IMG/VR virus record: IMGVR_UViG_3300017613_000990
Span: 1-47,099 of that record
Strand: one strand, 5' to 3'
DNA from: a virus
Length of the DNA stretch: 47,099 nucleotides
Both the position numbers and the translations under genes were made by a program. How positions within the stretch are numbered: position 1 is the stretch's first letter; each line of letters opens with the position of its first letter. The notes under the pieces were generated by a model that worked only from the letters and a program-made list of their open reading frames with translations, did not search any database and was not told the origin of the DNA. Shown in pieces: positions 5,154-40,728 of the stretch.

Positions 5154-5163
5154 ACCGCCCCCT

Positions 5164-5343
5164 CTATGGTGTGTTAATTTTGAATTTCTTACACTCGCGC
5201 CGCCAAAACCCCCACTCGTCGTCAACCGGGGATCTCGGCATCCTGAATCGCATCTTGTGTCCAGCTTTGCAAACGAATGGCTTTCCTGATTTCAAGTTCA
5301 GGTAGACCGGGAACGACCTGCATGTGTTGCACCATATCCTCAT
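5164..5343 (-). CDS. Small Cys-rich, probably zinc-binding protein (59 aa)
   Basis: ATG at 5343 overlaps the methyltransferase stop region (TGATATG) and TAG lies 11 nt before the Mom-like start. The protein has CNTC near the N-terminus, CKAGH in the middle and a late Cys (WRREC), suggesting one metal site. It ends in a basic tail. It is probably co-translated with the two DNA-modification genes. Confidence 0.65.
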   Translation of the reverse strand: MRIWCNTCRSFPVYLNLKSGKPFVCKAGHKMRFRMPRSPVDDEWGFWRRECKKFKINTP

Positions 5344-5344
5344 A

Positions 5345-7690
5345 TCAACCCCACAATTTCAACTGCCGGGCCTCGCCCTCGATTCTTGGCACCGAAATGT
5401 CCATATACCCTAAATCAATCCCAACCCACCGCCGCCCGTATTTCTCACACTGCAAGGCCACTGTGCCACTTCCGAGAAAGCAATCGAGTACGGTGCAGGG
5501 TACGGGCTTTCCCCCGCATTTGCAGGTTGGCTCCCAGCCGGTTGTTTTGGCAGGATTATCGTTTATCCAATTTTGTACCGCTTGCCCAGCCCCTCTACGG
5601 GTGCCTTGATTACCGAAAGCATGCACAAAACCATCATCCGGGTTTTTTGTTTTCGAGTAAAGGTGTTCAGGAATTTTTGGTTTCTCCACAACCCGCTCCC
5701 AAGGTGCCCCGCACTCAGGGCAGCACCCCCGCTCGCTGGTCCCGGCCAAGATGCAGGGCAGGATGAGCGCCGGAGGAAATGTCGCGAAATGTGCGCCTGG
5801 AAAACTGTGCGTGGGTACCGTCCAGACTGATCGCTTGTTTCTTGTCCCGTTCCCCCAAGTCCTTTGATTGGCCTCGTTATCAACACCCCTATCATTCCTG
5901 TCCTTAACGTCTGTAGCCCATCCTGGAGAATGTGGCTTTGTCTCTGACGGCTCCTTAATGGCCTCGGCATCGTAATAATACCGGGCCGCTTTCGTCATGA
6001 GAAATATATATTCGTGCGATTTTGTGCACCGGTCCGTCACACTTTCTGGCATTGGATTGGGCTTCGAGTTGTGGGTCAGGACACCAGAAGCAAGCGCAAA
6101 TTGATGCGGTTCATCTTCAACCCCAACATCATAGAAATACCTTGCCCTTGATTTGCGTATCTCTATGATTTCACCTTTGTCTTTCTGGTTCCAATGCAAA
6201 CGTTTTCTGGGAAACCTGATTTCACCACGGAAAGAATCATATTTCTTTGTACCGATGTAAGATTTTGATAATTTGCAAGTAAGCTCTATGCCAAGGCGGG
6301 CGCACAATGTTCTTAAATCAGATTCTAAATTATAATTTCTTGTGAAACCTACACGCCACCGCTTGTTACCTTCTTCCCAATGACCGTCACCATGCAAATA
6401 TCCTTCCAATAAATAATGAAGAAAAACATTACTTCTTTGCCAACAAGCATTGGATAAATGTTTATCTTTTGCGATTTTTCCAGCAAGATACGTGTCTATA
6501 ATAGCATTTAATATTTTGCCGTCCAAACATATCGTCATTCCGTTTTCGGATGTTATGTGCTTTCTGCATGTTCCATCATATTGTTCTGCAATTTTGCACA
6601 ACTTATCAAACCTATATGATTCTCTAATATGCGAAGCAATCTGAATTGTCTTCGAAGTGTCCCGGCTGCCTTCAGCTAAATATGTTCCGATAAACCATCC
6701 TATTTCATTGGGGACATATGTTCTTATAAATGATTTTTTTTGTGGCAAGTAACACATTTCAATAATGTCACCACATTTTAGGGCTCTTGCTTTGACGATT
6801 CCATTTTTAGTGGGCCACTTGTGATTCGGTGTGCATGAAATGCGTTCACCACTTCTGAGAACAATCTCTATTTCATCCCCTTTTCGTGGATGTTTGGACA
6901 TTCCTTTTAATTGTGTCCATTTTATGCCGTTCCAAAGTTTCACCGTTTCCGGTTTAAGCCGGTATAGGTCTTTAAGGTTTGTCGGCATATCGCCTTTTTG
7001 TGTTCTGGCATAAACCTTAGTGCCGCCCGATAGACACCATATTATGTCCTGCCGTAGCCACCACCCATCTGCCTGTAGCGCTAGGGCCACACGCCACGGT
7101 ATGCCTAATAATTGCTTTGCTTCCCCGCCGCACCTTGGAATATCTTGGGCTATTTGTGTGCCGTCGTCTATTCCCCTATCCCCCGGTTGTCTTTTTGCTT
7201 TAGTTCCCGTTCCATACGAATCACCAAGATTTAAAAACAGGCTACCGTCCGAGCGCAGCACCCGGCGCACCTCCCTGAATATCTCCACGGTATGCTCGAC
7301 GTATAGCTCCGGGGTTGGCTCAAGGCCGTAATTGCCTAACCAGGCGTTGCATTTTTGGCAGAATTGTCCGGAGGATACAGACTTGTAGTTACCATTTTCT
7401 TGTTTTTTTGCTCCAGCTGCATTTCCCCATCGTTCATTGAAGCACTCGTTATAATTTGAATATTGCTTTGTTTTTTCACCACCCCACACATGCACACAAT
7501 CCTTATCCCCGCCCCACACAATCGGCGGGTGCCCGTAATCCCTCAAGCCCCAGTACGGAGGGCTTGTAATGCAGCATTGAATGGACTCTGGTTCCATTTC
7601 CCGCAATACCTCCAGCGCGTTGCCTTGGTACAAGTCACCAAGTTTGGTTGAGTAATATGGCTTACGCAATGATTTCACCCTGGGCCTCAA
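5345..7690 (-). CDS. Beta-class DNA methyltransferase interrupted by an intein (781 aa precursor)
   Basis: Host protein: the SAM-dependent amino-methyltransferase motif TSPPYW is near residue 42 and the SAM-binding DCFLGSGT is near 736. This order is typical of beta-class N4-cytosine/N6-adenine enzymes. A zinc knuckle pair (CCPEC and CKCGG) lies between them. The fold is broken after Trp218 by a 323-residue intein (Cys219-Asn541). Splicing would join DIIW to SKPNPMPES, restoring a conserved segment of this family. The mature enzyme would be 458 aa. The start is TTG at 7690 or a later GTG/TTG, with no clear ribosome-binding site; it overlaps the upstream gene. Probable role: protecting phage DNA or epigenetic marking. 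Confidence 0.85.
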   Translation of the reverse strand: MRPRVKSLRKPYYSTKLGDLYQGNALEVLREMEPESIQCCITSPPYWGLRDYGHPPIVWGGDKDCVHVWGGEKTKQYSNYNECFNERWGNAAGAKKQENGNYKSVSSGQFCQKCNAWLGNYGLEPTPELYVEHTVEIFREVRRVLRSDGSLFLNLGDSYGTGTKAKRQPGDRGIDDGTQIAQDIPRCGGEAKQLLGIPWRVALALQADGWWLRQDIIWCLSGGTKVYARTQKGDMPTNLKDLYRLKPETVKLWNGIKWTQLKGMSKHPRKGDEIEIVLRSGERISCTPNHKWPTKNGIVKARALKCGDIIEMCYLPQKKSFIRTYVPNEIGWFIGTYLAEGSRDTSKTIQIASHIRESYRFDKLCKIAEQYDGTCRKHITSENGMTICLDGKILNAIIDTYLAGKIAKDKHLSNACWQRSNVFLHYLLEGYLHGDGHWEEGNKRWRVGFTRNYNLESDLRTLCARLGIELTCKLSKSYIGTKKYDSFRGEIRFPRKRLHWNQKDKGEIIEIRKSRARYFYDVGVEDEPHQFALASGVLTHNSKPNPMPESVTDRCTKSHEYIFLMTKAARYYYDAEAIKEPSETKPHSPGWATDVKDRNDRGVDNEANQRTWGNGTRNKRSVWTVPTHSFPGAHFATFPPALILPCILAGTSERGCCPECGAPWERVVEKPKIPEHLYSKTKNPDDGFVHAFGNQGTRRGAGQAVQNWINDNPAKTTGWEPTCKCGGKPVPCTVLDCFLGSGTVALQCEKYGRRWVGIDLGYMDISVPRIEGEARQLKLWG
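6068..7036 (-). mobile_element. LAGLIDADG intein in the DNA methyltransferase (323 aa)
   Basis: Residues 219-541 of the precursor. Splicing residues are all present: N-terminal Cys219, an N-terminal block starting CLSGGTKVYA, TPNH (block B) near 287-290, terminal His540-Asn541 in ASGVLTHN, and +1 Ser542. Two LAGLIDADG homing-endonuclease motifs are visible: IGTYLAEGS (acid Glu340) and LEGYLHGDG (acid Asp435). Both catalytic acids are kept, so the endonuclease may be active and the intein mobile. Confidence 0.9.
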
Positions 7691-15582: not shown

Positions 15583-15769
15583 GATAATTCTTTAGCTTTT
15601 CCTGCATCGCCTTTGCCATTGCCATTGCCAATCTGCATTTTTCCTTAATCCCTGTGTCTTCTGTCATGCCATATATATCCCTCAAGGTTTGGCAAATTGT
15701 ATGGTGCCTTGCCCACCTTGTTTTGAGCATCTCATTTTCGCTTACGGGCTGTCTTCTTTTATATGACAT
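15569..15769 (-). CDS. Small helical hypothetical protein (66 aa)
   Basis: Basic, Ala/Met/Lys-rich, predicted all-helical (CRLAMAMAKAMQEKL). Translationally overlapped with the large glycosyltransferase upstream (28 nt). Unknown. Confidence 0.55.
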   Translation of the reverse strand: MSYKRRQPVSENEMLKTRWARHHTICQTLRDIYGMTEDTGIKEKCRLAMAMAKAMQEKLKNYRDKA

Positions 15770-17352
15770 AGAATATCCTGAACTCTGTTTTCAGTGACAC
15801 CCCATCCTGGCACTTCGTTAGCTTCCGTCCACCCCTTTGTGTATCGTTTATTCCTGAATTGTTTTTGTTTCCACCGGCTCGGAGTTAAATTTGTGTCATG
15901 CCTGATATCAACATTCGGATTTTTTGATTCCCATTTTTTAGATTTGTAATCGTCAACCCGTTCAGCCCGGCTGTGTGTTCCAGGTTCAAATCCCATTTTT
16001 CGTGAAAACCCGTTCTCTTCAACTAACCTTACCCGCTTTTTGTAGTGTTTTAACAACAGCTTGCGGTACGCACACAACCCGCTCGTTTGTCTGCAATCGT
16101 CCACTTTCAAGGCATGGCCGTCTTTAGCCCGGACCTTCCAGACATTGACATTATAGTAAAAGGTATCTTCTCTGTCTGGAATAAATTCATAATGTGATGG
16201 ATGATATAAAACATCATGTTCTGCAAAAAAAACGATATCGGTATCTATTGACTTTAGCCCCTCAAGGATTTGTTTGAACATGGACAATGCTGATGATTCT
16301 AAGTCTAAACAGATATTTTCCCCAAATGATATTGGTTTTTGAGATACGGAAACAATTTTATGCCCATTTGAGGCGTTCTTAATCTGTTGTTGAACAGCCC
16401 CGGTTATTAGATCATCACATTTGTTATTGGTGTAATACAAGATGCCCCTTGTCGGCTCATCCCATGTGGGCACTGGCGCAAATTTATCTAACAACCACTG
16501 GAGGTTATGTTTTGCTTTCGGCCATGTGTTACCCACCCATAGTTTCTTGGAATGCTCTCTTGCTCGTTTTACCTGTTGCCCTGACATTGGATACGGAAAC
16601 CCAAAGCCTTTCCCGGTTCTGAACATATGAGCAAACCATGTTTTCCTGTTTGTAACCTGGCGGCCATCGGAAAGCCATGTTTTGCAGGCAATCTCCGTTC
16701 CTACTTGGCCCCAGCTTCCATGCCTTTCGTCCAGCCCATCTATATCCCAATATCTTTCACGGTGCATAAAAAAACAGGCACCAAGGCTTGACATGGTATC
16801 TACAATATCGCCTTTAGCTTCAGGCCGTTTTTTAAATGCTCGCCAATATTGGAACTTCAGGTCTTTGTCAAAATAATAAAATTCAGACCTTGGATTTTTC
16901 TTTGCCTCCCAGATAATGACCTGTTTTATGTACCGGCTTCCACAATTAGCGCACCGCTCCGGTTTTATTCCCTGGTAAACACGCTTTTTACATCTCCGAC
17001 ATACCCAATCAAACGCATGGAGATTATACATGGTTGGAATAACGGTCCAATCATATTCACAATCCGCCATTAATTTAACGTCAAATCCATCATCAACGGC
17101 GCAGTGTGCGTCTAACTTCATAATATATTTAGCTTGAGATAACTTTACGCCTTCATTCACTGCCGCCCGTTGGCCTATGGACTCTTCATGATGGATAATC
17201 GAAATTCTTTTGTCCTTGGGTATATCGGCATGATACCCATCAAGGATAACAATAATTTCCGTATTACCCTTGATGTTCGACAAAACATTATCAATGGTGG
17301 TTTGCAGAAATTCTTCTTCTCTTGATGCTATGATAATATCGAGATCCGGCAT
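15742..17352 (-). CDS. Two-domain GT2-type glycosyltransferase (536 aa)
   Basis: The N-terminal half is a GT-A fold: DIIIASREEEF start, and MKLDAHCAVDDGF (Asp81-Cys84), the nucleotide-sugar/metal DxD-like region. A zinc ribbon is inserted at residues 118-137 (CRRC and CANC). The C-terminal half, from about residue 290, has a second nucleotide-sugar-like region ending VFFAEHDVLYH. The closest relative here is the 315-aa gene at 19200, which shares DAHC and KTWxAH elements. It overlaps the GT29-like gene by 25 nt, in the same coupled chain. Confidence 0.75.
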   Translation of the reverse strand: MPDLDIIIASREEEFLQTTIDNVLSNIKGNTEIIVILDGYHADIPKDKRISIIHHEESIGQRAAVNEGVKLSQAKYIMKLDAHCAVDDGFDVKLMADCEYDWTVIPTMYNLHAFDWVCRRCKKRVYQGIKPERCANCGSRYIKQVIIWEAKKNPRSEFYYFDKDLKFQYWRAFKKRPEAKGDIVDTMSSLGACFFMHRERYWDIDGLDERHGSWGQVGTEIACKTWLSDGRQVTNRKTWFAHMFRTGKGFGFPYPMSGQQVKRAREHSKKLWVGNTWPKAKHNLQWLLDKFAPVPTWDEPTRGILYYTNNKCDDLITGAVQQQIKNASNGHKIVSVSQKPISFGENICLDLESSALSMFKQILEGLKSIDTDIVFFAEHDVLYHPSHYEFIPDREDTFYYNVNVWKVRAKDGHALKVDDCRQTSGLCAYRKLLLKHYKKRVRLVEENGFSRKMGFEPGTHSRAERVDDYKSKKWESKNPNVDIRHDTNLTPSRWKQKQFRNKRYTKGWTEANEVPGWGVTENRVQDILCHIKEDSP

Positions 17353-17855
17353 TTGTGCGTCTCTGCTGCTTCGTTTATCACTTGTTTTTCAGCCCGGTGA
17401 TCGTGGCAATGATACGTTCTTTTTCCCAACATGACCTTGTCCATCCCGGCTAAATACAATTCGGTTAGTTTGAAAGTTTCCAAAGCCATAAAGATTGCTG
17501 CTGTTCCTTTTGTGGGAAAGTCCACATTTGGATGTGGTCTTAACGGCTTCGCTATTTCTCTGTATTTGTTGAGCCATTTTTCAATGCAGCCGTTTATAAA
17601 AATTTTATGTGTTTTGATATCTGCAATGCCTTTCCACTTCCCATTTGTTTCATATAACCATAATTCTTTCGTGTTTGTTAAATCGTATTCTTTCAAGCAA
17701 TCGGTTTCCAACGCAATTGCCAGTACATAATCCATCCTGAACCCAAAGTCTTTATCTATCCGCCCATTTGTCAGTCTTATAACCGGATAATGACTGTCAA
17801 TTTTCTCCCCAAGCCCTCGCCCCCCATAACTTCCGCCTTTACCAACAACTATCAT
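17328..17855 (-). CDS. GT29-like sialyltransferase-type protein (175 aa)
   Basis: The N-terminus VVGKGGSYGGRGLGEKIDSH followed by VIRLTNG matches the L-motif logic of GT29 sialyltransferases (VVGNG.S, then ID.H, then ViR.N). This binds CMP-sialic acid. Later elements are FPTKGTAAIFMALE and ELYLAGMDKVM. It is only 175 aa, shorter than classical enzymes, and similar folds also occur in DUF115-type proteins. NeuA and NeuB are encoded in the same block, which supports a CMP-nonulosonate donor. Starts by ATGA overlap. Confidence 0.55.
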   Translation of the reverse strand: MIVVGKGGSYGGRGLGEKIDSHYPVIRLTNGRIDKDFGFRMDYVLAIALETDCLKEYDLTNTKELWLYETNGKWKGIADIKTHKIFINGCIEKWLNKYREIAKPLRPHPNVDFPTKGTAAIFMALETFKLTELYLAGMDKVMLGKRTYHCHDHRAEKQVINEAAETHKCRISILS

Positions 17856-18637
17856 TCCAAAACCTTATATTGTTCTGCGATATGGTCTATATGGTATCTT
17901 TCGGACTGAGCCAATGCCTTGCTTGCCATTGTGTTGTAATATACATTGTCTTTCAACCGGCTACAATTTTCAACAATTTCTTGTGTTGACTTAACTGGCA
18001 CAAAACACCCGCTGAACTCTCTAACATAACTTTTTTCTGGATACGCTACGGTCGGTATCCCAAAAGACCCGGCATTACATAACTTTAACGGGGTTTTTAA
18101 AGACGATAAGTAATATTCCGGCCTGAATGCAACCTGAATATCAATGGATTTATAAAAAGCAATTACGTCCCCCCGGCCAATGAATTTTGTCTTTGCTTTA
18201 AATTTTAAACCTTTCCCAGTAAGTGCTGTTTTTAACTTTATCGGTTGTAACTCTTTAAGTCCGTTCTTTGAACCAATATATCCTACTGTTGTTATTTCCC
18301 GTTCCGGCCTTTGTCCTTGCTCGTAATTGCAATGGTGCTGCTGTACCAATTTTATGTCTGTTCGTTTCAATTCTTCAGATAAATATTCTTGAGCGACTTT
18401 AGACGCTGCGATAACCCCTATTTTGGGATGTCTTTTTACCCAAGAGACAAGCCCGTACCCATCAAGAACGTCTATATATGATTGTTTGGGGAAATTCTCT
18501 GGTGGTTGTGTTTTTACATAAATGCACACATTGTTTTCATGCCCATTGACAGGGTTTTTTCCAGCACCGATGTAGTCAGCAACTTGCATTCCCCGAATTA
18601 TCCCAGACCCCACTTTTTTAGAATAAAAGAAAATCAT
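17852..18637 (-). CDS. GT-B type glycosyltransferase (261 aa)
   Basis: Contains TVGYIGSKNGLKEL in the middle and YYLSSLKTPLKLCNAGSFGI further on, the pattern of the C-terminal nucleotide-sugar domain of GT4-like enzymes (KxxE-type loop replaced by LKTPLKL.NA.SFGIP). The N-terminal acceptor domain is short. Starts right after the upstream stop (TAAATG), so it is coupled. Confidence 0.7.
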   Translation of the reverse strand: MIFFYSKKVGSGIIRGMQVADYIGAGKNPVNGHENNVCIYVKTQPPENFPKQSYIDVLDGYGLVSWVKRHPKIGVIAASKVAQEYLSEELKRTDIKLVQQHHCNYEQGQRPEREITTVGYIGSKNGLKELQPIKLKTALTGKGLKFKAKTKFIGRGDVIAFYKSIDIQVAFRPEYYLSSLKTPLKLCNAGSFGIPTVAYPEKSYVREFSGCFVPVKSTQEIVENCSRLKDNVYYNTMASKALAQSERYHIDHIAEQYKVLE

Positions 18638-19222
18638 TTATTTCTTTACCCACAAGAAACTTGGATCTTTGTCCCTTGTTATATACCATAACGTTATGTA
18701 GTGAGCATAGGTATAGGCGTCCACCGCATTGACAACACCCTGCTGGTAAGCATGGGCATAGTCGTGCCCTGAAACTATCCCTCCATGACGAACCTTACGC
18801 GACCAGCATATGATATCCATCATTACATCGTCAAAACTGTGCATTGCATCAATATACACAAAGTCTAATGAGTTGTCCTCAACATCATTCAATGCCTCCA
18901 TGCTGGTCTTGTGTATAATGGTTGCATTATATGGTTTTAGTTTTTTAATTGCTATCACATGCCTTTTGTTTGCTATTTCTTGAGTTGTGCCTTTTCTGTA
19001 TGGACCCCAATAATCAATAGACAATAATTTAAGATTAGGATTTGCCTTGCATAAAATCTCTGAAAATACCCCCTCTCTAACTCCGACTTCAGCACCGTAA
19101 TTATACCCTATTTCTCCAAGAAACTCCGCCAGGGTATTCCGAGAACCTCTCCACGCTCTAAATGGCAAGTGATCACCTCGGTGGATATGGAACTTTTTTC
19201 TAATTGCTCTGTTTACGTCCAT
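18638..19222 (-). CDS. Class I SAM methyltransferase of glycan cassette (194 aa)
   Basis: Motif I GAEVGVREG (residues 43-51), an acidic strand end SIDYWGPY, and DFVYIDAMHSFDDVMMD (motif for the Methyltransf_24 type). In glycan clusters this family O-methylates sugars. Embedded between two glycosyltransferases with overlapping starts, so sugar capping is the likely job. Confidence 0.7.
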   Translation of the reverse strand: MDVNRAIRKKFHIHRGDHLPFRAWRGSRNTLAEFLGEIGYNYGAEVGVREGVFSEILCKANPNLKLLSIDYWGPYRKGTTQEIANKRHVIAIKKLKPYNATIIHKTSMEALNDVEDNSLDFVYIDAMHSFDDVMMDIICWSRKVRHGGIVSGHDYAHAYQQGVVNAVDAYTYAHYITLWYITRDKDPSFLWVKK

Positions 19223-20147
19223 GTAGCCTCTTTTTCTTTACCCAAGGGTGTTCATAATTTTCAAAGTATTTCGGATTATCCCAATCTTTCGGCCAACCTT
19301 CCAGTGGGCCGAATTTTTTAATCAGCCATTTTAAGTCTTTTGTTTGCTTGTACCATTTGTTGTGCATCCACATATCCATGCAAAACAATTCTCCCTCTGC
19401 CTTCAACCTTGCAGATAAACCATAATCTATTTTATGTTTCGGTCCTTTATGCAGATGAGCGTACCATGTTTTTTTGTTCCGTATTACCCGGCCCCCGGAA
19501 AGCCATGTTTTAAATCCTATTTCCTGGGCTTCCTGAAAAAACTCATTGTATTTATCCGACTCTAACCCATCTATTGAATAATAATGATCTTTGTGCATAA
19601 ACCAGCATGAACCTTGAAAGGACAATAAATCATCTATGAGAATTTTTTTTCTTTCCCTCTCTTTGTGCCAAAAACTTCCGGTTAATCCATGTTCTCCCCG
19701 CCACTTTATACCATGAAAACCAGTTCCATATATCTTGTTGTTATCATATGGATATGTGAGATATAGATAATCTACCGGCCCTCTAAACCGTTCCCATTTT
19801 TCTACGTCTAAGCTATATCGGCTAGGTATAGACACCCAATGCTTGTCACAATCGGCCTTAAGAATTTCATCAAACCCTTTGCCTACCATACAGTGAGCAT
19901 CTATTTTCATTAGATACTTACCAGAAGATATTCTCACCCCTGCATTTATCAGACTTCTCATGCCAACAACAGAACCCATTCGGACGGCAATTAAATCTTT
20001 GTGGTTTCTTAGTTCCGGGTCTTCCTTGTAATCAGCCATCACTGCAATGACTTCTATCTCACCAGTAGCATTTTTAATCAAACTGTCCACGGTTTTTGAT
20101 AAAAACGGTTCGTTTCTCGCCGGAATTATAATCGAAACCTTATCCAT
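19200..20147 (-). CDS. GT2 (GT-A) glycosyltransferase (315 aa)
   Basis: SIIIPARNEPFL start, then MKIDAHCMVGKGF (Asp83-Cys86) as the DxD-like element and FQGSCWFMHKDHYY and KTWYAHLHKG in the acceptor half. The start overlaps the last 8 nt of the Ser-Pro-repeat gene, so the enzyme is made by ribosomes finishing that protein. This is the strongest link between the repeat protein and the glycan cassette. Confidence 0.8.
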   Translation of the reverse strand: MDKVSIIIPARNEPFLSKTVDSLIKNATGEIEVIAVMADYKEDPELRNHKDLIAVRMGSVVGMRSLINAGVRISSGKYLMKIDAHCMVGKGFDEILKADCDKHWVSIPSRYSLDVEKWERFRGPVDYLYLTYPYDNNKIYGTGFHGIKWRGEHGLTGSFWHKERERKKILIDDLLSFQGSCWFMHKDHYYSIDGLESDKYNEFFQEAQEIGFKTWLSGGRVIRNKKTWYAHLHKGPKHKIDYGLSARLKAEGELFCMDMWMHNKWYKQTKDLKWLIKKFGPLEGWPKDWDNPKYFENYEHPWVKKKRLHGRKQSN

Positions 20148-22251
20148 TTATCACCGCCCCGCCCATTACAAGGCTGTGTATTCCGTTTGCTGTAATAATC
20201 GGCATGGCAAAGGTAGGGGCTGCACTGGGAGACGCTGACGGTGATTCAGACGGACTCTCAGACGGGGACTCAGATGCAGACGGCGACAAAGAAGGTGACT
20301 CTGAAGGACTCTCTGAGGGAGAACCAGATGGTGATTCCGACGGGCTTTCGCTTGCAGACGGACTAAGGCTCGGAGACTCAGATGGACTCTCTGACGGGCT
20401 TCCTGACGGAGATGCACTCGGGCTCTCCGACGCCGATGGACTTAATGATGGAGATTCGCTTGGAGACTCGGATGGACTTTCGCTTGCAGATGGACTTAGG
20501 CTTGGAGATTCCGATGGACTCTCTGAAGCTGAAGGCGACAAAGAAGGTGACTCTGATGGTGATTCGCTCGGTGATTCCGAAGCTGACGGGCTTAAGCTCG
20601 GACTTTCTGATGGACTTTCAGACGCCGACGGACTCAATGACGGTGATTCACTCGGGCTCTCACTCGGTGATGCTGATGGTGATTCTGACGGACTCTCACT
20701 TGGAGAACCTGGATCTGAAGGGCTTGGTGATGGAGATTCGCTTGGAGACTCGGATGGACTTTCACTTGCCGATGGACTTAATGACGGGCTTTCAGAAGGT
20801 GACTCACTTGGACTTGCGCTTGGTGATTCTGACGCTGAAGGGCTTAATGATGGAGATTCCGACGGAGATTCCGACGCTGAAGGACTTAAACTTGGAGACT
20901 CGCTCGGACTTTCGCTTGGGGATGCCGAGGGACTTTCGGACGCTGAAGGGCTTAATGATGGAGATTCCGATGGGGACTCGGATGGCGATTCGGATGGAGA
21001 TTCACTTGCCGATGGTGACAAGCTCGGTGATTCGGATGGACTTTCACTTGGTGATTCTGAAGCTGACGGGCTTAATGAAGGGCTTTCCGAAGGACTCTCA
21101 CTGGGTGAAGCCGAAGGCGATTCAGACGCCGACGGACTCAATGACGGTGATTCTGACGGAGATTCCGACGGGCTTTCACTCGGAGATTCCGACGGGCTTT
21201 CGCTTGGGCTGCCGCCAGCCGCCACATACTCAAACGCCCCGATATCCGGCGTAGACCCATCTCTGGCATTTCCAAGGATATCTGTTGTAACTGCCCCTAT
21301 AGCCGTTCCTTGTTCAATTACACATGGACTTGTTGTGTAGTCTTTTAACGAATAATCCTGATTAGCATAATCGTTGAAAACTTTTGCCCAATCGGTAGCC
21401 TCTGCTGTGAAATCAACAGCATTAGTTCCGGTCCCTTCATCAGATGCACAATAATCAACCGTTGCATTTGACTCATTTTGAAAATCATCTGTCGAGTTAA
21501 TAACAACAGTATTTTTCACAGTGCAATTGCTTAGGGTTGATAAATCAATTCCATTTTTATTTGCACCGCCATCAACAGTACAATGATAGATATATGTGTG
21601 AGAATTTTCATTTGTTTTCTTGATTGCATCGTCACCGCCAGCTCCATAAACCACACAATTTATCAGATACAACACCTCATTGGTCGAGTCGTTACCAAAT
21701 AATTGCACCGATGCATAGTTCTGTGCTGAGGAAAACATACAATTCCTGAACACTAATTCTTTATGATAGGCGTTAGCAGCTACATTTAAACTTGAATTTG
21801 TAGTCGCAGCAACCACCTGCAACCCATCAAACTCTATATCTAAAAACTCTGTTGCTGTTGCATCATTGTCAATGATTAGCGTGGGCGCACCACCCCCCGC
21901 ACTTAGGTAGTGAGCATCTGTAGTGTCGGGCTTACCATCTGTAAACCTCGCACTGCCGTATGTTTTTACATACACCCGTGAGTCATCAACAGCTTTAGCC
22001 GTTTCCCATCCGTCGAAAGTAGTCCGCCCGTCCGCTGAAGACCACGTACCATCTGACGGAATAATCTCAACCATCAGCTCGGTATGACTACCGGTTGCTA
22101 ACGTCAAATCACCGTTTTGGTCTGACTCCATTGCAGACAATGAAGTATAAGTGTCTGAATAGCTCGCGCCTGCATCTCCTTGTGGATCGTCGCCACTCGG
22201 ATCAGTTGCACCACTTGGATACACCGCTACATATTTTGTTGTAAGTGCCAT
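20140..22251 (-). CDS. Beta-helix protein with long Ser-Pro repeat domain (703 aa)
   Basis: Residues 1-345 form a right-handed beta-helix with a choice-of-anchor-Q-type end (DILGNARDGSTPDIGAFEY). Residues 348-675 consist of SPSE/SPSL/SPSA units, an extended, Ser-rich stalk typical of glycosylated surface proteins. The last 28 residues (NGIHSLVMGGAVING) are a separate conserved tail. Probably a virion appendage or fibre. It starts by TAATG overlap with the preceding gene and is followed by coupled glycosyltransferases. The repeats may be O-glycosylated (inference). Confidence 0.75.
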   Translation of the reverse strand: MALTTKYVAVYPSGATDPSGDDPQGDAGASYSDTYTSLSAMESDQNGDLTLATGSHTELMVEIIPSDGTWSSADGRTTFDGWETAKAVDDSRVYVKTYGSARFTDGKPDTTDAHYLSAGGGAPTLIIDNDATATEFLDIEFDGLQVVAATTNSSLNVAANAYHKELVFRNCMFSSAQNYASVQLFGNDSTNEVLYLINCVVYGAGGDDAIKKTNENSHTYIYHCTVDGGANKNGIDLSTLSNCTVKNTVVINSTDDFQNESNATVDYCASDEGTGTNAVDFTAEATDWAKVFNDYANQDYSLKDYTTSPCVIEQGTAIGAVTTDILGNARDGSTPDIGAFEYVAAGGSPSESPSESPSESPSESPSESPSLSPSASESPSASPSESPSESPSLSPSASESPSESPSESPSLSPSASESPSESPSESPSESPSLSPSASESPSASPSESPSESPSLSPSASESPSESPSLSPSASESPSASPSESPSESPSLSPSASESPSESPSESPSPSPSDPGSPSESPSESPSASPSESPSESPSLSPSASESPSESPSLSPSASESPSESPSESPSLSPSASESPSESPSLSPSASESPSESPSESPSLSPSASESPSASPSGSPSESPSESPSLSPSASESPSESPSGSPSESPSESPSLSPSASESPSESPSESPSASPSAAPTFAMPIITANGIHSLVMGGAVING
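20226..21210 (-). repeat. Ser-Pro repeat array (985 bp)
   Basis: Degenerate 12-bp units encoding SPSx (x mostly E, L, A), arranged in higher-order units such as SPSESPSLSPSASESPSA. About 328 codons. Synonymous codons vary, so protein sequence, not DNA, is conserved. Opposite-strand open frames here are by-products of the repeat. Confidence 0.95.
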
Positions 22252-33793: not shown

Positions 33794-34153
33794 TTAATGC
33801 ACCTGGAATGAGTTGTGTCCCTTTATGGTAACGGACAAAGATGCCTGAGTCGTTACCGCACTATGGAGAATAACCTCTAAATGTTCCCCATAACCATATT
33901 CGCCAAAATCATATCCGAAATTATTCACGGCGTCGGCGTCCACCTTGACTTGAAAATTCTCGCCACCGGTGTCCATGTCCCTGATTTCAATAATTCCAGA
34001 TCCACCAGCAGCAGCTTTGTGAACGTCAATTCGTATGTGCTCGATATACAGATGCATACCGGTGGTTTGTGCATCGTCTAAATCAGCAGATGCCGTCTCA
34101 TTGTCAATTTGCCACGCATAGGCTACTTGGGGGTACTCCCACGGTTTACTCAT
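33794..34153 (-). CDS. Hypothetical structural protein, beta-rich (119 aa)
   Basis: Start at 34153 follows AGGAGATCGTG and overlaps the neuA stop as TGATG. Beta-rich with MHLYIEHIRIDVHKA and HLEVILHSAVTTQASLSV; looks like a small decoration or fibre subunit. Confidence 0.5.
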   Translation of the reverse strand: MSKPWEYPQVAYAWQIDNETASADLDDAQTTGMHLYIEHIRIDVHKAAAGGSGIIEIRDMDTGGENFQVKVDADAVNNFGYDFGEYGYGEHLEVILHSAVTTQASLSVTIKGHNSFQVH

Positions 34154-34803
34154 CACGATCTCCTTTTTTTTAACAAACCTTCCATAATCCCCCAATCAGC
34201 CGGGGTATCTATTTCAAAATATGTGTCCGGGTCCATCTCAAACACGCCTATATCCCCCGATATCCTGCATTTGGACTCCAGCAGCAGCTTTTTAGGGGTA
34301 ATGAAAAACGCCCCGTTTTCTATGAGTACACCGCCCCATTCCTGTCTACGCAGCCTTGCTGACGGGGTGTAATTCAAAGGAATCCCATCGTTAGACCAAA
34401 AGAATTTATGCTGTCTACAAACACTCACAATGCTGCCATAGTTAGAATGCTTTATCAGGGCCAATTGTAAATCCTTAGACGTTGTTAGCGGTTGTGTGGC
34501 TTGCAGCAATACGATGGTGTCAAAATCAACATAGTTTGCTAATTCAAGCATCGGTGTTTCCTGCATACAGTAATCGTCCATATGCTTTGTTCTGAAAAGA
34601 TCCACCTTATCCGATACGTATTCGCTTGCAATATCCCAAATATAGTCGCTGTCTATGCCGAGATAAACAGTGTCTATCAGGTTGCATTGTGCCGCAGCTT
34701 CCATTGCCCACACAAACAATCGTTTCCCACATATTTCTTTAACATTTTTGTGCGGGATTGATTTAGACCCCCCACGTATGGGTAAAAACGCTACTGTGCG
34801 CAA
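34153..34803 (-). CDS. neuA: CMP-sialic acid synthetase-like cytidylyltransferase (216 aa)
   Basis: Activates a nonulosonic acid with CTP. The nucleotide-binding start PIRGGSKSIPHKNVKEICGK matches the family signature, followed by LLQATQPLTTSKDL, ENGAFFI and EIDTPADWG. Full-length for the catalytic domain. It overlaps neuB by 13 nt; the pair would make CMP-activated sugar for the GT29-like gene of the tail-proximal cassette. The sugar could be Neu5Ac, legionaminic or pseudaminic acid. Confidence 0.85.
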   Translation of the reverse strand: MRTVAFLPIRGGSKSIPHKNVKEICGKRLFVWAMEAAAQCNLIDTVYLGIDSDYIWDIASEYVSDKVDLFRTKHMDDYCMQETPMLELANYVDFDTIVLLQATQPLTTSKDLQLALIKHSNYGSIVSVCRQHKFFWSNDGIPLNYTPSARLRRQEWGGVLIENGAFFITPKKLLLESKCRISGDIGVFEMDPDTYFEIDTPADWGIMEGLLKKRRS

Positions 34804-35612
34804 CTTAATTTCTCCCTGATAGGACGTTCAGAATCGTATATTTTCTTCACCCCATCACCCAAGGCTGCTTCCACATCCCGCATATACTTACATGCCTTTA
34901 TCGTGCCTTCTGGGTTGAATGACGCCGCTTGGTCACTGCCGTACATCAATTTATCCATCGTAATATGGAACTCCACCATTTCGGCACCGAGCGCCACCGC
35001 AGCCGGCATAAATATAATCCCAGGGTGATGATTGGAAAACCCTATGCGATACCCTGGATATCTTTCTTTAAGTGTCGTTATGCACCGCAGATTCATTTCT
35101 TCTGTTTTCGTCGGGTATGTTGACGTACAGTGCATAATGCAATGAACCCTGTCTTTCCTGAAAAACTTTACCGCTTTGTCAATCTCGCCCAAGCTGCACA
35201 TGCCGGTTGATAGAATAACGGGAACGTCATAATACTTTACAGCAGCAAGGACTTTCTCGTTTGTCATCATGGCAGATGCGATTTTAATAAACGGTGGCTC
35301 AAACCCCATTAAAAGATTTACCGCCAATTCATCCCATGCAGAGGCAAACCACGGAATGCGGGTTTTGCAATAATCGTTAATCGCCTGGTAGTCTGTAAAC
35401 TCAAGCTCAATCCCTTCTTTTTGCTCCTTGGTCGTATTGCCCCACGGTGACACCCTTGGTTTTGCAAGGTCCTCTTTGCTATACACCCGGCTTACCGTGC
35501 GTTTTTGAAACTTCACATAGTCGCACCCTGCAATATACGCCGTGTCGATTAGCTTTCTCGCAAGGTCAATATCGCCATTGTGATTAATCCCAACTTCAGC
35601 TATGATTTTCAT
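34791..35612 (-). CDS. neuB: N-acetylneuraminate synthase-like protein without SAF domain (273 aa)
   Basis: Condenses phosphoenolpyruvate with an N-acyl-mannosamine-type sugar. Family motifs in order: AEVGINHNG (residues 4-12), VKFQKR, VILSTGM, HCTSTYP, GFSNHH, and FHITMDKLMYGSDQAASF. It ends at EKLSCAQ, just where the usual C-terminal antifreeze-like SAF domain would start, so it is shorter than the usual 330-350 aa. Start at 35612 follows GGGGGGAAA. Confidence 0.85.
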   Translation of the reverse strand: MKIIAEVGINHNGDIDLARKLIDTAYIAGCDYVKFQKRTVSRVYSKEDLAKPRVSPWGNTTKEQKEGIELEFTDYQAINDYCKTRIPWFASAWDELAVNLLMGFEPPFIKIASAMMTNEKVLAAVKYYDVPVILSTGMCSLGEIDKAVKFFRKDRVHCIMHCTSTYPTKTEEMNLRCITTLKERYPGYRIGFSNHHPGIIFMPAAVALGAEMVEFHITMDKLMYGSDQAASFNPEGTIKACKYMRDVEAALGDGVKKIYDSERPIREKLSCAQ

Positions 35613-36369
35613 TTTCCCCCCTAATAATTTTGTAAACCATGTTTGCGCCCGTTTTGTCACTCTGTGTAAAGGACTGATTGGCAACACGAAACCAAGATAA
35701 AAATCGCTCTATACCCTCGTCAGTTACGGAGATTTTGCTTTTAAACAAACCACTTTTAAACCGCCTTCTATAATCTATCGTGGCTTTATCTCCACTCCCC
35801 CAATTTTGGTCACAGGTTTTCATTATCAACCCATACCCGTAATCTTTGCAAAAATCCTGAAAATCCCAAGGTGCCAGAAAATGTTTATCGGCAAGACTCA
35901 TTTCCACATCCAAAAGATATTGGAGGGTCATCCAAACATACCCTCTTGGGTTAAGGAAATTCGGACTTGATGTAATAACGTACCCACCTTTTTTTAAAAG
36001 GGTGTTCATAATATACCGCAAATCAATAAATGGGCTATCAAAATGCTCAAGCACACCCTGCATAACAACCACATCGTATTTCCTGTCCATGTTGATATAA
36101 TGCAAATTGCTAAACTGTACCGTATGATCACTGTTCTTGTGTGTCCTGTTGCTAATGGCGTTTCTAATTGCAACCGCACTAATATCAATTGCGTCAACGT
36201 TTGCATTTCTTTCTGCTATTTCAATGGCTAACTTGCCCTCGCCGCATCCTATTTCCAACACTTCCAAACCATCCCACTTGGACATTGAAAGAATGGTGTC
36301 CTGTTCGTCCTGCTTTTCCCCCCAGGTGCCGTTTTCGTACAACTCATCGTATAATTCGTTTAGTCTCAT
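35596..36369 (-). CDS. Class I SAM methyltransferase (257 aa)
   Basis: Motif I LEIGCGEGK (38-46) and MQGVLEHF after the acidic strand; the C-terminal region is typical of sugar or small-molecule methyltransferases. It is next to neuB (17-nt overlap) and to a second methyltransferase, so it is probably part of the glycan programme. Confidence 0.75.
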   Translation of the reverse strand: MRLNELYDELYENGTWGEKQDEQDTILSMSKWDGLEVLEIGCGEGKLAIEIAERNANVDAIDISAVAIRNAISNRTHKNSDHTVQFSNLHYINMDRKYDVVVMQGVLEHFDSPFIDLRYIMNTLLKKGGYVITSSPNFLNPRGYVWMTLQYLLDVEMSLADKHFLAPWDFQDFCKDYGYGLIMKTCDQNWGSGDKATIDYRRRFKSGLFKSKISVTDEGIERFLSWFRVANQSFTQSDKTGANMVYKIIRGENENHS

Positions 36370-36818
36370 CCTTTTCGCGCCTCTACGACAAGATGCCCAT
36401 CTGTGGATACGTTCATTACCTCAAGCCGAAACCCAACTTCCGCTAAAACTTTGGCCCAAAATCCCATGTTCCTTTTTGTGTCAAGTTTCAGATAATAGTT
36501 TCTGCTGCCAACCCGATACAGTTCCTTAAAAACCTTTTTGCTCGGCTTAAATGCTTTCGGGTATGATACAAAATCAAACATTTCATCTTTGTATGGCAAT
36601 GAATGAAGGTTTACCTTTCTTACATACGGGTCTATCCCCTGAATCGCCCATGCGTTTTTAAAATCCTTAATATCACAACCGTAGAGATTCAGCCCCCTGC
36701 CCCTGCCGACTCTTATTCTTTGCCCGTCACCGCACCCAACTTCAAGCCCACGATAAAAAACCGGGTATTGTGTGAATACTTTTCTGAGCAACTCGTCTCT
36801 GAAATTTTCTTCCCCCAT
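36366..36818 (-). CDS. Small SAM methyltransferase-like protein (150 aa)
   Basis: GLEVGCGDGQ (24-33) as motif I and FVSYPKAFKP at the motif IV region, but the protein is short and lacks the C-terminal sheet. Overlaps the 257-aa gene by 4 nt. Possibly a regulatory or degenerate partner. Confidence 0.6.
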   Translation of the reverse strand: MGEENFRDELLRKVFTQYPVFYRGLEVGCGDGQRIRVGRGRGLNLYGCDIKDFKNAWAIQGIDPYVRKVNLHSLPYKDEMFDFVSYPKAFKPSKKVFKELYRVGSRNYYLKLDTKRNMGFWAKVLAEVGFRLEVMNVSTDGHLVVEARKG

Positions 36819-37507
36819 TAGTCTATAAGCTCCGGTTTGTCGTGAATTAACCTCGTTGTTACGGAATATTCTTTTAAATCGTTTCCATCCCTGTCAAGCG
36901 GGGTAAGCCTAAAAGAATGATGGTCCCGCCTGATGTTCTCTGGAATCAGGTAAAGCAACCCGTTTGGTTCCTGCCTTGGTGTGTACCCGTAAAAATTCCC
37001 GGTCATGGTTCTCTTTAAAAGATAACTTTCTTCAGGGAGTGCCACCGCAATGTCCCTGCCAATCGCAACCCCTAACCAAAACTCAACCGACCCCTTTTCG
37101 TTCATGCGGTATTCGTGCCCAGCTTCCGATCTCATGTCAGACCCGAACATGGTGATTTTCTTCGCACCCTCTTTTATCGCAAGCGCAATCATGTAGCACA
37201 TGACATTCAGGAAAAACGCAACGTTAAATTCCTTGATTACTTCCTCAATTGGATACTCAACGTTGTTTTTAAACGCCGGGTAATCGCCTGCCGTATAAAC
37301 GGGTACGTCCAATTGGTTGACATTGTGGATAAAATCCTTGTCCATTAGTAAAATATCGTGTCTCAAGTCGTGCATGATGAATATTCTATCAGCAGGACGA
37401 TTGCGGTACATCGTATTGACACACCATATTTCCTCGTTTTCCCCCACCTTTTCAGGACACTTGTACCAACTCGGACCCAACGCTAAAATAATTACATTGT
37501 CTAACAT
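36818..37507 (-). CDS. DUF115/sialyltransferase-fold-like protein (229 aa)
   Basis: Start at 37507 follows GGGGGGGAAA. The N-terminus VIILALGPSWYKCPE and later IFIMHDLRHD and ITMFGSDM recall DUF115 and GT29/42-related folds that handle CMP-sugars. Its place in the NeuA/NeuB cluster suggests a transfer or processing step for nonulosonate (inference). Confidence 0.5.
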   Translation of the reverse strand: MLDNVIILALGPSWYKCPEKVGENEEIWCVNTMYRNRPADRIFIMHDLRHDILLMDKDFIHNVNQLDVPVYTAGDYPAFKNNVEYPIEEVIKEFNVAFFLNVMCYMIALAIKEGAKKITMFGSDMRSEAGHEYRMNEKGSVEFWLGVAIGRDIAVALPEESYLLKRTMTGNFYGYTPRQEPNGLLYLIPENIRRDHHSFRLTPLDRDGNDLKEYSVTTRLIHDKPELID

Positions 37508-38091
37508 TTTCCCCCCCTGTTTAATTCCGGCCATTTGGTTTGTATTTGCTCTATGATTTCTTCGTCGGTTCTACGTCGCTCATTAAAGTAAATCTTCAAA
37601 TGATCCCTGTTCTTCAACAAACGCCCAATTGAAATCATCTTCCCCTTTATTGCTGTTTTAGCAAGTTCCCTACCCTTATCTCCTGAATACGCTACCCACC
37701 AGGTACAAAACGAATTAACAACAAGCGGAAATTTCCTGATTGGCCATATAATATTAATCTTTGGGCAAAAGGTATCATACATGCCCAATAAATATGTTAG
37801 TCCGTTTACCTTCAATCCCCAAGGCTTTTCAGTGGCGTATCTTGCCGCTATCTCTTTTTGGGTATAATAAAACCAATCTGGAAAACTTCCCATACCTCTT
37901 GTGAGTTTCCTGTTTTCATAATGTACGGAAACATCTTCGTAATACCCCTTTGGATTGGCATCGTCTGCCGGGACCAACGTGCCGCCCATTGAAACCTTGA
38001 AATGCTCGTGCATTATCCTGGCAACTGTTGATGTGCCGGACCTTCCAACCCCAACTATAAACCACGGTGCGTTTTTAATCCTATTTCGCAA
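37501..38091 (-). CDS. Sulfotransferase-type protein (196 aa)
   Basis: FIVGVGRSGTS (11-21) is the PAPS-binding P-loop of the sulfotransferase family, here at the extreme N-terminus as usual. The rest is alpha/beta with KINIIWPIRKFPLVVNS, where an Arg and Ser are placed like the 3'-phosphate-binding pair. It probably sulfates a glycan. Confidence 0.7.
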   Translation of the reverse strand: MRNRIKNAPWFIVGVGRSGTSTVARIMHEHFKVSMGGTLVPADDANPKGYYEDVSVHYENRKLTRGMGSFPDWFYYTQKEIAARYATEKPWGLKVNGLTYLLGMYDTFCPKINIIWPIRKFPLVVNSFCTWWVAYSGDKGRELAKTAIKGKMISIGRLLKNRDHLKIYFNERRRTDEEIIEQIQTKWPELNRGGKC

Positions 38092-38749
38092 CGAACATTA
38101 TCCCCCTTGCGAAAAACGGCATGGGCGTGTCAACCCAATAAAACTTTTCCACTTCGAAACCATGCCGTATTAGCAATGTTTTCAAGGTGTTATAGCTATA
38201 TATCGCTACATGCTGCTCGTTATCGTACTCGATTCCTTTCCGCATTATGGCGTGCCTTGAATGGCAATAAGCGTTTGGAACCGTCACGATTATCGGGCAT
38301 CCGAACTTTCGGCAATTGTCAAAGAACAATCCTGCATTACTAAGGTGTTCAAGGATTTCGCTTGCTATTATTAAATCAAACTCATGTTCTGTTAATAGCA
38401 AGGGCCAATCTTCTTTGTCTAAATCGGCTTGAATAAAGTCCGATGCGGTATCGGTCGATTCTTTATCAATGCCGAAAACAAAGGAACACACTTCTTCAAG
38501 CTTTGTGTGCAATACGCTAGGTGCTTTCGAATGTCCCTTGCATCCCAGGTGCAGCACTTTCTTGTCTTTACACAGAGATGTTATTGCCGGTATCCGATTA
38601 ACACACTCTGCGTCAGGAACCCTGTGGATCATAAAGTCAATAAATGACTGTGTGCGCCAAACCCCTGAAAACTCTACGAAATTCTCTGGATTTTTCTGGA
38701 TTTCCTTTAACGCATCTTCATCAATAACCTGAAGCCCACAATCGTCCAT
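38081..38749 (-). CDS. Class I SAM methyltransferase (222 aa)
   Basis: Start at 38749 follows CAGGGGGAAAA; the longer frame runs over an intergenic hairpin. VLHLGCKGH (65-73) is motif I and IIASEILEHLSNAG follows the acidic strand. First gene of the glycan cargo block after the head genes. Substrate unknown. Confidence 0.75.
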   Translation of the reverse strand: MDDCGLQVIDEDALKEIQKNPENFVEFSGVWRTQSFIDFMIHRVPDAECVNRIPAITSLCKDKKVLHLGCKGHSKAPSVLHTKLEEVCSFVFGIDKESTDTASDFIQADLDKEDWPLLLTEHEFDLIIASEILEHLSNAGLFFDNCRKFGCPIIVTVPNAYCHSRHAIMRKGIEYDNEQHVAIYSYNTLKTLLIRHGFEVEKFYWVDTPMPFFARGIMFVAK

Positions 38750-38763
38750 TTTTCCCCCTGTTA

Positions 38764-38781
38764 GGGCGGGTTGCCCCGCCC
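38764..38781 (-). terminator. GC-rich hairpin after the beta-helix gene
   Basis: GGGCGGG/CCCGCCC with a TTGC loop lies in the 40-bp gap between the beta-helix gene and the first cargo gene. No U-run follows, so termination would be partial at most. It could limit cargo expression relative to capsid genes. Confidence 0.5.
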
Positions 38782-38789
38782 GGTTAATA

Positions 38790-39725
38790 TTAGGTAGATA
38801 CGCCATCCTCTGCTGGCAGCAATTCACCCTGTAGCGTGGAAAGGGTGGCAATATAATTCCTGAACAGCTTTGCAGTACCGCATTTGGCCGCCATCGTTCC
38901 GGCTGCCGTACCGTTCAACCCAATCAGGTTGTTGGAAATTATGCCAGTGAGAGCAACCGTTGTTGCACCAATGGAAATACCCTCTTTCCCAGATGCAATA
39001 TTCAGCAGCTTGTTGTTGGAAATGTCTACCCGAAGCAACGCCTGTGCAGCGGAATTGGTGAGAATACCAACGGAAAAATCACCGTTAATATAATTGTCTC
39101 GGATAACGATATCGTTTGATACACCATCCGTATCACCAAGCTGAATACAATCGGTTGCGCCGGCTACATCTGCGGTCACATAGTTGTTCGTGAAGGTAAA
39201 CCCATGTGAAGATGCACCGACCTCTATTCCTATGGTAGCCTGGCCACCGGTATCTGCCATGATGATCTCACAACCGTCAATAGTGCAGTAAGCCCCATCA
39301 ACATCAATCGGAGCAGCAACGGCATCAATTCCGGTAAAATCAAACCGCATATTACGGATAAGAACGTTATCCGCACCAACATCAATGTCACACGCTTCGG
39401 TGGTTCCGAGTGTAATCGTAGGCCGGTTGTCACCATTACCAAGGCCGATAATCGAAATGCCCTCCACATCAGCGTCAATCCCTGCTGCGGCGGTAAGCGC
39501 CTCGGTGTGTGCCGGCATCACGAAAATAACATCGCCCTTATTAGCGGTGCATTTGTTGATACCGGCATCAATGGTTGCAAGTGCATTTGTGGCATCCGCG
39601 CCTGAATCTCCATCACTGCCGGTTGTGCTATCCACAAAGTACACACTTCCAGTGGTCAACACGGCACCGCCAACGATGGGTATGCCCATACTTGAAATCC
39701 CATTTGGGAATTTTGTTAAAGCCAT
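38790..39725 (-). CDS. Beta-helix virion protein (311 aa)
   Basis: A right-handed parallel beta-helix: repeated short strands with V/I and N/D/G turns (NVLIRNMRFDFTG, ISNNKLLNIASG). The N-terminus MALTKFPNGISSMGIPIVGG is a separate motif likely for docking on the capsid. Strong AAGGAG ribosome-binding site. Located next to the major capsid gene; probably a head appendage or decoration. Confidence 0.65.
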   Translation of the reverse strand: MALTKFPNGISSMGIPIVGGAVLTTGSVYFVDSTTGSDGDSGADATNALATIDAGINKCTANKGDVIFVMPAHTEALTAAAGIDADVEGISIIGLGNGDNRPTITLGTTEACDIDVGADNVLIRNMRFDFTGIDAVAAPIDVDGAYCTIDGCEIIMADTGGQATIGIEVGASSHGFTFTNNYVTADVAGATDCIQLGDTDGVSNDIVIRDNYINGDFSVGILTNSAAQALLRVDISNNKLLNIASGKEGISIGATTVALTGIISNNLIGLNGTAAGTMAAKCGTAKLFRNYIATLSTLQGELLPAEDGVST

Positions 39726-39822: not shown

Positions 39823-40728
39823 TCAGGCACCTGGGCTACCAAATATCCCCCAGGGGATACTCCAACCTCTTTTCCAACGTGCCCGAACCTTGAACTTCGC
39901 ATCGTCCGTGTCAAAGTCATTACCCTTATAATGATCGGGCATTACCCTCCAGAACCAATTCAGCTCATGCTCATCACATATAATGAACCAAGCATCGGGA
40001 TCAGTAAGGTACGCCCACTGGATCATTTGAAGGTTTTCACCCTTCATCGGATTTATTGCGTTGTTCGCGGAATCCCACTCAAGGTTACTTTCGAACATTT
40101 TCTTGACAGTAAAGCCAAGTTCCACCGGATACAGCAGCTTTTTAGGCATGAGATTCATAAGAATCCCCCTGTCGTCCGTGGTTTCGTAAATGTCGATTGT
40201 AGCTTGCTCGTAGGATGTTTCCGAAAGATCGGCGGCATTGGTTAGCTCGTTTTTCTGCGTGCCACCTGTAACAAGTACGTGGGTTGTGGCACAAAGTTCA
40301 ATGCTGTCACCACCACCTGTGTACGAGTCGGAAAACGCATTATTAAACATATTGGCCCCGTCAGTCTCAACCGTTGCCCTCATGCTGCGCCCTAATGCTT
40401 TCGGAAGTTTTGCCATAAGCCCGTAACGTGAATCTTCGTGCATTTCCTTTGTCACCCGATAAGCGAGTGAATAGGTGTCATGCGTATACCGCACGTCAAG
40501 GCCCTGGTAGATGTCGTCATACGATGATGCGGCACCTTCGTTTTTGGTAGGCACCAGCCCAAAACCCGTCATGTAGGAATCATCCACATATTGGGTTGCC
40601 GGTGTCTTCGGAAAATTAAACACACTGTTATTTACCGGTGGCTTTTCACCGAATTTTAAGGCATCCATAAATATCTGCCGGAATCCGGGGGCAAGCTCAT
40701 CAGCAAAATTCGTTCTTTGCAAAGTCAT
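39823..40728 (-). CDS. Major capsid protein, HK97-like fold (301 aa)
   Basis: Length and position after scaffold and decoration genes, a canonical TAGGAGGGTAAC ribosome-binding site, and the pattern GLDVRYTHDTYSLAYRVTKE then PKKLLYPVELGFTVKKMFES and KVRARWKRGW at the C-terminus suit a Mu-like/HK97-fold major head subunit. It forms the icosahedral shell. Confidence 0.75.
   Translation of the reverse strand: MTLQRTNFADELAPGFRQIFMDALKFGEKPPVNNSVFNFPKTPATQYVDDSYMTGFGLVPTKNEGAASSYDDIYQGLDVRYTHDTYSLAYRVTKEMHEDSRYGLMAKLPKALGRSMRATVETDGANMFNNAFSDSYTGGGDSIELCATTHVLVTGGTQKNELTNAADLSETSYEQATIDIYETTDDRGILMNLMPKKLLYPVELGFTVKKMFESNLEWDSANNAINPMKGENLQMIQWAYLTDPDAWFIICDEHELNWFWRVMPDHYKGNDFDTDDAKFKVRARWKRGWSIPWGIFGSPGA

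Follow-up and report, generated by a model that had tools for sequence, protein, structure and literature searches.

Can a phage make and activate a sialic-acid-like sugar and attach it with enzymes of its own? The question is raised by a genome fragment of 47 kb from a tailed phage that has not been cultivated (IMG/VR record IMGVR_UViG_3300017613_000990, positions 1 to 47,099; this whole stretch of 47,099 nucleotides is hereafter called the window), in which seven overlapping minus-strand genes are placed between the capsid and beta-helix genes and the head-to-tail genes. In cassette order they encode a methyltransferase, a sulfotransferase-like protein, a protein first labelled 'DUF115-like', two methyltransferases, a NeuB-type synthase and a NeuA-type cytidylyltransferase. 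In animals, as in certain bacteria, sialic acids and related sugars serve as surface masks and receptors; synthesis and attachment of such a sugar by a phage itself would, if the reading is true, represent a new way for microbial viruses to alter their coat or their host. The explanation that we favour, with moderate confidence, is that the phage encodes a route to a cytidine monophosphate (CMP)-activated ulosonic acid which feeds its own sialyltransferase-fold enzymes, most likely decorating a virion protein. The enzyme families, the kept catalytic residues, the linked gene order and the lineage-specific insertion on which it is built appear directly in the sequence.

The NeuB-type protein (34791-35612, minus strand, ATG at 35612; 273 amino acids, aa) is predicted to be a phosphoenolpyruvate (PEP)-condensing synthase without a SAF domain. 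It belongs to the NeuB family, containing a complete TIM-barrel domain (PF03102, 1-241/241, E 5e-63) with the PEP and metal ligands K53, K129, S132, H215, H236 and D247. Residues E25, K53, Q55, K129, S132, Y186, S213, H215, E234, H236 and D247 are shared with the Neisseria enzyme, N184 and T110 are both changed to Ser, and none of the NeuB catalytic residues is lost relative to that enzyme. The Neisseria reference sequence used here matches the PDB alignment over the residues compared, 21-286, except at position 111 (P versus L). Homology stops near position 291 of this enzyme, which has 349 residues, and a profile scan of the window found no SAF domain.

The neighbouring NeuA-type protein (34153-34803, minus strand, TTG start; 216 aa; PF02348 E 1e-13) is a putative CMP-acylneuraminate (ulosonate) cytidylyltransferase. 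Its PDB matches include PpNeuA (9t4z, E 8e-38 over residues 2-210) and the animal CMAS 1qwj (E 7e-29), and it carries the CTP_transf_3 domain and the motifs RGGSKSIPHKN, QATQP, RRQEW...ENGAF and EIDT of a CMP-sialate synthetase. The two genes overlap by 13 nucleotides. The initial annotation, which had read clear NeuB and NeuA signatures, overlapping genes and a NeuB ending just where SAF would begin, holds on all three points, and the genes lie where it had placed them. The same two families, with their catalytic motifs and as a linked overlapping pair, make up the sialic acid pathway of bacteria and animals (NeuB/SiaC with NeuA/SiaB/CMAS); here the pair is phage-borne, in a head-to-tail operon. 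The pairing is also recurrent in viruses: a NeuA-type gene was found in 47 of 50 viral NeuB records versus 1 of 25 control records (p 3e-15), a contrast favoured by the fact that the control records were mostly short. With catalytic residues kept in both enzymes and the pair so widely linked, the earlier proposal that a nonulosonic acid is made and activated is well supported, and synthesis and activation of a CMP-ulosonic acid is the step that we consider likely.

The truncated NeuB is not peculiar to this phage. A homologue search for SAF-less NeuB, proposed with the initial annotation, yielded 80 relatives in viral contigs, nearly all in frames of 273-308 aa (163 in L013), and 80 cellular relatives in a genome collection, whose C-termini all lie 2-14 residues from the match. 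SAF was detected in none of the 50 viral NeuB records, including the window, versus 8 of 14 control genomes. The cellular relatives come from, among others, Chloroflexi, Omnitrophota, cyanobacteria, Gastranaerophilales and archaea, and the SAF-less proteins from metagenome-assembled genomes (MAGs), 43-56% identical to the window query, resemble the window protein and PDB 6ncs (290 aa) in length, none of them having SAF. Judged by these alignments, the lack of SAF marks an entire NeuB subfamily found in both viruses and cells, and this raises the question of how catalysis proceeds when the domain believed to complete the active site is missing. The presence of 80 cellular relatives rejects the idea that SAF loss is a viral invention. 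The idea that all viral NeuBs lack SAF is likewise rejected, because a SAF-containing control query found 11 full-length NeuBs in viral contigs; viruses thus carry both kinds.

A tree of 145 NeuB rows places 58 viral NeuBs in one fully supported clade. The window falls in a separate small viral group with the contigs L002, L003, L004 and the long-branched L070, nested in a supported set of 12 together with cellular rows from Thermoplasmatales, Lachnospiraceae, Ratteibacteria, an actinobacterial MAG and Chloroflexi; of the three viral NeuBs closest to that of the window, two are those of L002 and L004. The tree forces at least three changes between viral and cellular labels. By this placement the window NeuB goes back to an uptake separate from that of the main viral clade, and, on the tree, NeuB was gained by viruses at least twice. 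A T4-type capsid gene is present in 17 of 49 NeuB contigs versus 0 of 14 controls, so at least those 17 contigs are phages. Among 50,697 phage records, a NeuB relative is encoded by only two viral ones, both uncultivated; a Moritella viscosa record in that collection (FPLJ01000048.1) was set aside, as it is a bacterial capsule locus whose NeuA and NeuB are bacterial. Neither the NeuB nor the NeuA of the window matches a PHROGs family, and one viral contig (L193) has a lone NeuA-type gene with no NeuB beside it. The NeuB/NeuA gene set looks common in environmental viruses and is barely described; it suggests that a sugar coat on particles or hosts may be widespread among phages. A literature search that reached few subscription papers turned up no account of phages making nonulosonic acids and none of the SAF-less NeuB subfamily; as far as this literature goes, the overall kind of system is known, and its phage setting, the absence of SAF and the association with GT29 have not been described before.

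Which enzyme would use the activated sugar? One candidate is a GT29-like sialyltransferase (17328-17855, minus strand; 175 aa; PF00777 26.5 bits versus a cut-off of 23), lying 16.6 kb from NeuA, close to the 17 kb given in the initial annotation. Its sialyl motifs L, S and VS are clear and motif III is partial. Foldseek searches with its predicted model (predicted local distance difference test score, pLDDT, 71) returned mammalian GT29 enzymes as first matches (best E 2e-5, TMq about 0.6); it thus resembles mammalian ST6GALNAC2 and ST8SIA3 in predicted fold and in the L-, S- and VS-like motifs, whereas it is only 175 aa long and its structure-based identity is 13-18% in the best matches. A search for close relatives of the protein found none. 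GT29 genes occur in 16 of 50 SAF-less-NeuB records and 5 of 11 full-length-NeuB records versus 0 of 18 NeuB-free records (p 0.002), and, leaving the window aside, 15 of the SAF-less-NeuB records carry GT29, which in 10 of them lies at most 1 kb from NeuA. The proposal that this gene uses the donor is strengthened by the sialyl motifs, by the fold predicted for the protein and by the tight linkage of GT29 to NeuA in other viruses; a second candidate transferase lies closer, inside the cassette.

This second candidate is the 'DUF115-like' protein (36818-37534, minus strand). The DUF115 label did not survive: PF01973 (DUF115/Maf) gave no match at E 0.1, and a profile comparison with the MptE-like set reached only 8.6% probability. 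PDB profile matches were to CstII only (E 0.02), and the top six Foldseek matches of its model were all GT42 sialyltransferases (best E 6e-5, prob 1.00, template modelling score about 0.42); the sequence and fold matches are not two independent lines, because both searches share information. The protein may share a fold with the GT42 enzyme CstII and with DUF115/Maf (MptE-like) proteins, with a profile match over residues 4-139 and aligned GPS and G-x-D segments, at an identity of about 15%. With modest confidence, resting on these comparisons, we regard it as better described as GT42-sialyltransferase-like. Members of this family in 24 other phage contigs (L173-L196) often form a tandem pair; one of these contigs, L182, also encodes a 922-aa protein that is tape measure-like.

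The GT29-like gene stands in a second set of sugar genes, all on the minus strand: a GT2 glycosyltransferase (15742-17352, PF00535 E 1e-12), a GT4-like glycosyltransferase (17852-18637, PF13692 E 6e-4, below cut-off), a methyltransferase (Methyltransf_24, 18638-19222, E 7e-15) and another GT2 glycosyltransferase (19200-20147, PF00535 E 4e-9). The first gene of this glycosyltransferase (GT) cassette (15742-20147) is overlapped by the gene end of a 703-aa protein (20140-22251, minus strand) with a 332-residue stalk (20215-21210) composed of 164 Ser (49%), 78 Pro and 50 Glu. All six Ser codons are present in the stalk (TCA 44, AGT 33, TCT 30, AGC 27, TCG 21, TCC 9), and a mixture drawn from the two Ser codon boxes is more in keeping with selection acting on the protein than with recent slippage of the DNA. 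By position and composition only, this stalk is the best acceptor candidate, an assignment that we put forward tentatively.

The pathway that we propose would run as follows. NeuB would join PEP to a host-supplied aldose, N-acetylmannosamine (ManNAc) or a related sugar, to give a nonulosonic-type acid, and NeuA would activate this with cytidine triphosphate (CTP) to a CMP-activated ulosonic acid. The GT42-like cassette protein, the distant GT29-like enzyme or both could transfer it, the acceptor being the Ser/Pro-rich stalk of the 20140-22251 protein, and the methyltransferases and the sulfotransferase-like protein may cap or tune the glycan, a role that is guesswork at this point. Transfer by an enzyme of the phage's own is reasonably probable, and the virion is to a similar degree the probable target rather than the host; the exact sugar, the transferase activity, the acceptor and the role of the caps are what we infer. 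Virion glycosylation as such has a precedent in mycobacteriophages (Freeman et al. 2023, as cited in PMC10955285). A bolder form of the proposal holds that environmental phages carry a complete sialylation module: SAF-less NeuB and NeuA, mostly accompanied by a small phosphatase of the HAD type, together with sialyltransferases that are GT29 or GT42-like. Such a module would have been acquired on two or more occasions, and this phage would use it to build a mucin-like, sialic-acid-capped particle stalk; in this extended form we find the proposal doubtful. To our knowledge, glycosylated mycobacteriophages make no ulosonic acid donor of their own.

Several observations weigh against our reading. 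Unlike the bacterial and animal enzymes, the window NeuB has lost R314 along with SAF, and E134 is replaced by Met; R314 is supplied by the SAF domain of the partner subunit and touches the acceptor sugar, and E134 is likewise near that sugar, so the acceptor pocket should differ. There is no NeuC-type epimerase: a UDP-GlcNAc 2-epimerase was not found in the window and is present in 8 of 50 viral NeuB records, so the acceptor sugar must here come from the host. Nor did a profile search find an HAD phosphatase in the window; L002 and L004 also lack one. When records of at least 40 kb are considered, the association of GT29 with NeuB (11 of 32 versus 0 of 6, p 0.15) is not significant. Confidence in the GT42-like model is low (pLDDT 60.6). 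The GHEYR segment contains a His that is present in the window and in the first L002 copy and is not conserved at 90% in the GT42-like family; in CstII the catalytic His is His188. The 24 contigs with GT42-like relatives have no NeuA/NeuB nearby, most of these contigs being short, and the idea that the GT42-like gene is a dedicated NeuA/NeuB partner is thereby weakened. Finally, a search for relatives of the Ser-rich protein found none, leaving it unique to the window.

The first of these points bears on the alternative that survives best, namely that SAF-less NeuB is a different PEP-condensing synthase, acting on another aldose or aldose phosphate and yielding another ulosonic acid or its phosphate by a logic similar to that of KdsA-KdsC-KdsB. 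R314 is absent from all 64 viral and all 80 cellular rows aligned, and position 134, Met in the window, is usually Leu in the viral rows and usually Ser in the cellular ones. The phosphatase step of such a scheme has candidates too: NeuB has a small HAD-type protein nearby in 69 of 80 viral loci versus 2 of 80 cellular loci, and an HAD domain is fused to NeuA in three of the four cellular NeuA proteins examined as partners of SAF-less NeuB. The window, L002 and L004, which have no HAD, speak against this scheme, and the window differs in that respect from the three cellular systems with the fusion. The window NeuB scores under both equivalog cut-offs, TIGR03569 (NeuB_NnaB, 228.1 bits versus 399.65), in part because the C-terminus is missing, and TIGR03586 (PseI, pseudaminic acid synthase, 160.3 bits versus 340.25); nevertheless NeuB_NnaB is the best family match, above PseI, and the 290-residue PDB 6ncs is annotated as an N-acetylneuraminate synthetase, short NeuB-type proteins having been so named before. 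We consider a different synthase a real possibility though not the favoured one, and it overlaps with our explanation because only the sugar changes.

A second alternative keeps the same synthesis and places the sugar on host surface glycans (capsule, lipopolysaccharide or S-layer) late in infection, blocking superinfection or re-adsorption of progeny to debris. That phages encode glycosyltransferases which modify the surface glycans of their hosts is well established (discussed in PMC10955285), and several NeuB viruses encode enzymes of sugar-nucleotide metabolism (DegT, SDR, epimerases), as in surface polysaccharide loci. Yet the cassette lies among head and tail genes rather than lysogeny or early genes, the GT cassette overlaps the end of the Ser-rich protein gene, and, among those window proteins that were scanned, neither a flippase nor a polymerase was noted; a host target is therefore rather unlikely in our view.

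How the cassette came to lie among structural genes is best seen from its relatives. The phage is a podovirus with an SU10-type portal (PF23899), and portal and capsid group it with Roseobacter phages CRP-901/902, Pelagibacter phages HTVC023P/027P, Caulobacter phage RW and others at 23-39% identity. Four annotated phage relatives have genes for the capsid, for a small or cement-type protein and for adaptors; none of the four has a gene set like the cassette. The viral contig L168 (capsid 63%, portal 53% and adaptor 51% identical) has three unrelated genes at the cassette site; the NeuA/NeuB cassette, the GT cassette and the gene of the Ser-rich protein are missing from it together, a joint absence that speaks for our explanation. 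L002 (capsid 72% identical) contains the cassette in a different gene order; it also encodes a radical-SAM/SPASM protein there and has two sulfotransferase-like and two GT42-like proteins instead of one each. Because L168 and L002 differ from the window there, the site appears to be a variable sugar-gene site, and by these gene maps the cassette is a lineage-specific insertion. That it is merely cargo in transit, picked up by chance at a variable site (other genes occupy it in L168) and of little function for the phage, is very improbable, as its seven frames are all open and tightly overlapped, the catalytic residues are intact, and L002 retains NeuB at 62% and NeuA at 50% identity.

The remaining genes of the cassette, also on the minus strand, encode candidate modifying enzymes. 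The sulfotransferase-like P-loop protein (37501-38091), with a GVGRSGTS loop, falls just under the PF13469 cut-off (26.7 bits versus 27), and its L002 homologue lies above it (38.7 bits), and the sulfotransferase label is weaker than the initial annotation had put it. The two overlapping methyltransferases and the third one described there were borne out by Pfam: an S-adenosylmethionine (SAM) methyltransferase at 38081-38851 (ATG 38749, hence 38081-38749; PF13489 E 1.8e-7), a short one at 36366-36818 (PF08241 E 2e-7) and one at 35596-36369 (PF13847/PF13489 E 1e-15), with relatives in L002 (41%) and L005 (40%). The insertion is bordered upstream by a beta-helix-like protein (38790-39725, minus strand), kept in L002 (46%) and L168 (50%), which follows the major capsid protein gene (39823-40728, minus strand; PF25209 E 3e-10). 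Its downstream edge is a small protein (33794-34195, minus strand), possibly a head fibre, with 26.6% identity to an L002 protein (E 4e-5) and a PF11133 match at E 0.06 only.

Radical-SAM/SPASM proteins are encoded in the NeuA/NeuB cassettes of L002 (5790-6671) and L004 (7149-7973) and are absent from the window cassette. Elsewhere in the window, a radical-SAM domain protein of phage family phrog_9298 (1728-2561, minus strand; E 2e-43) has no Pfam match. A Mom-like DNA modification protein (4494-5225, minus strand; phrog_1384, E 8e-53) adjoins a DNA methyltransferase match (5345-7690, minus strand; phrog_67), and this neighbourhood suggests that the phage DNA is modified.

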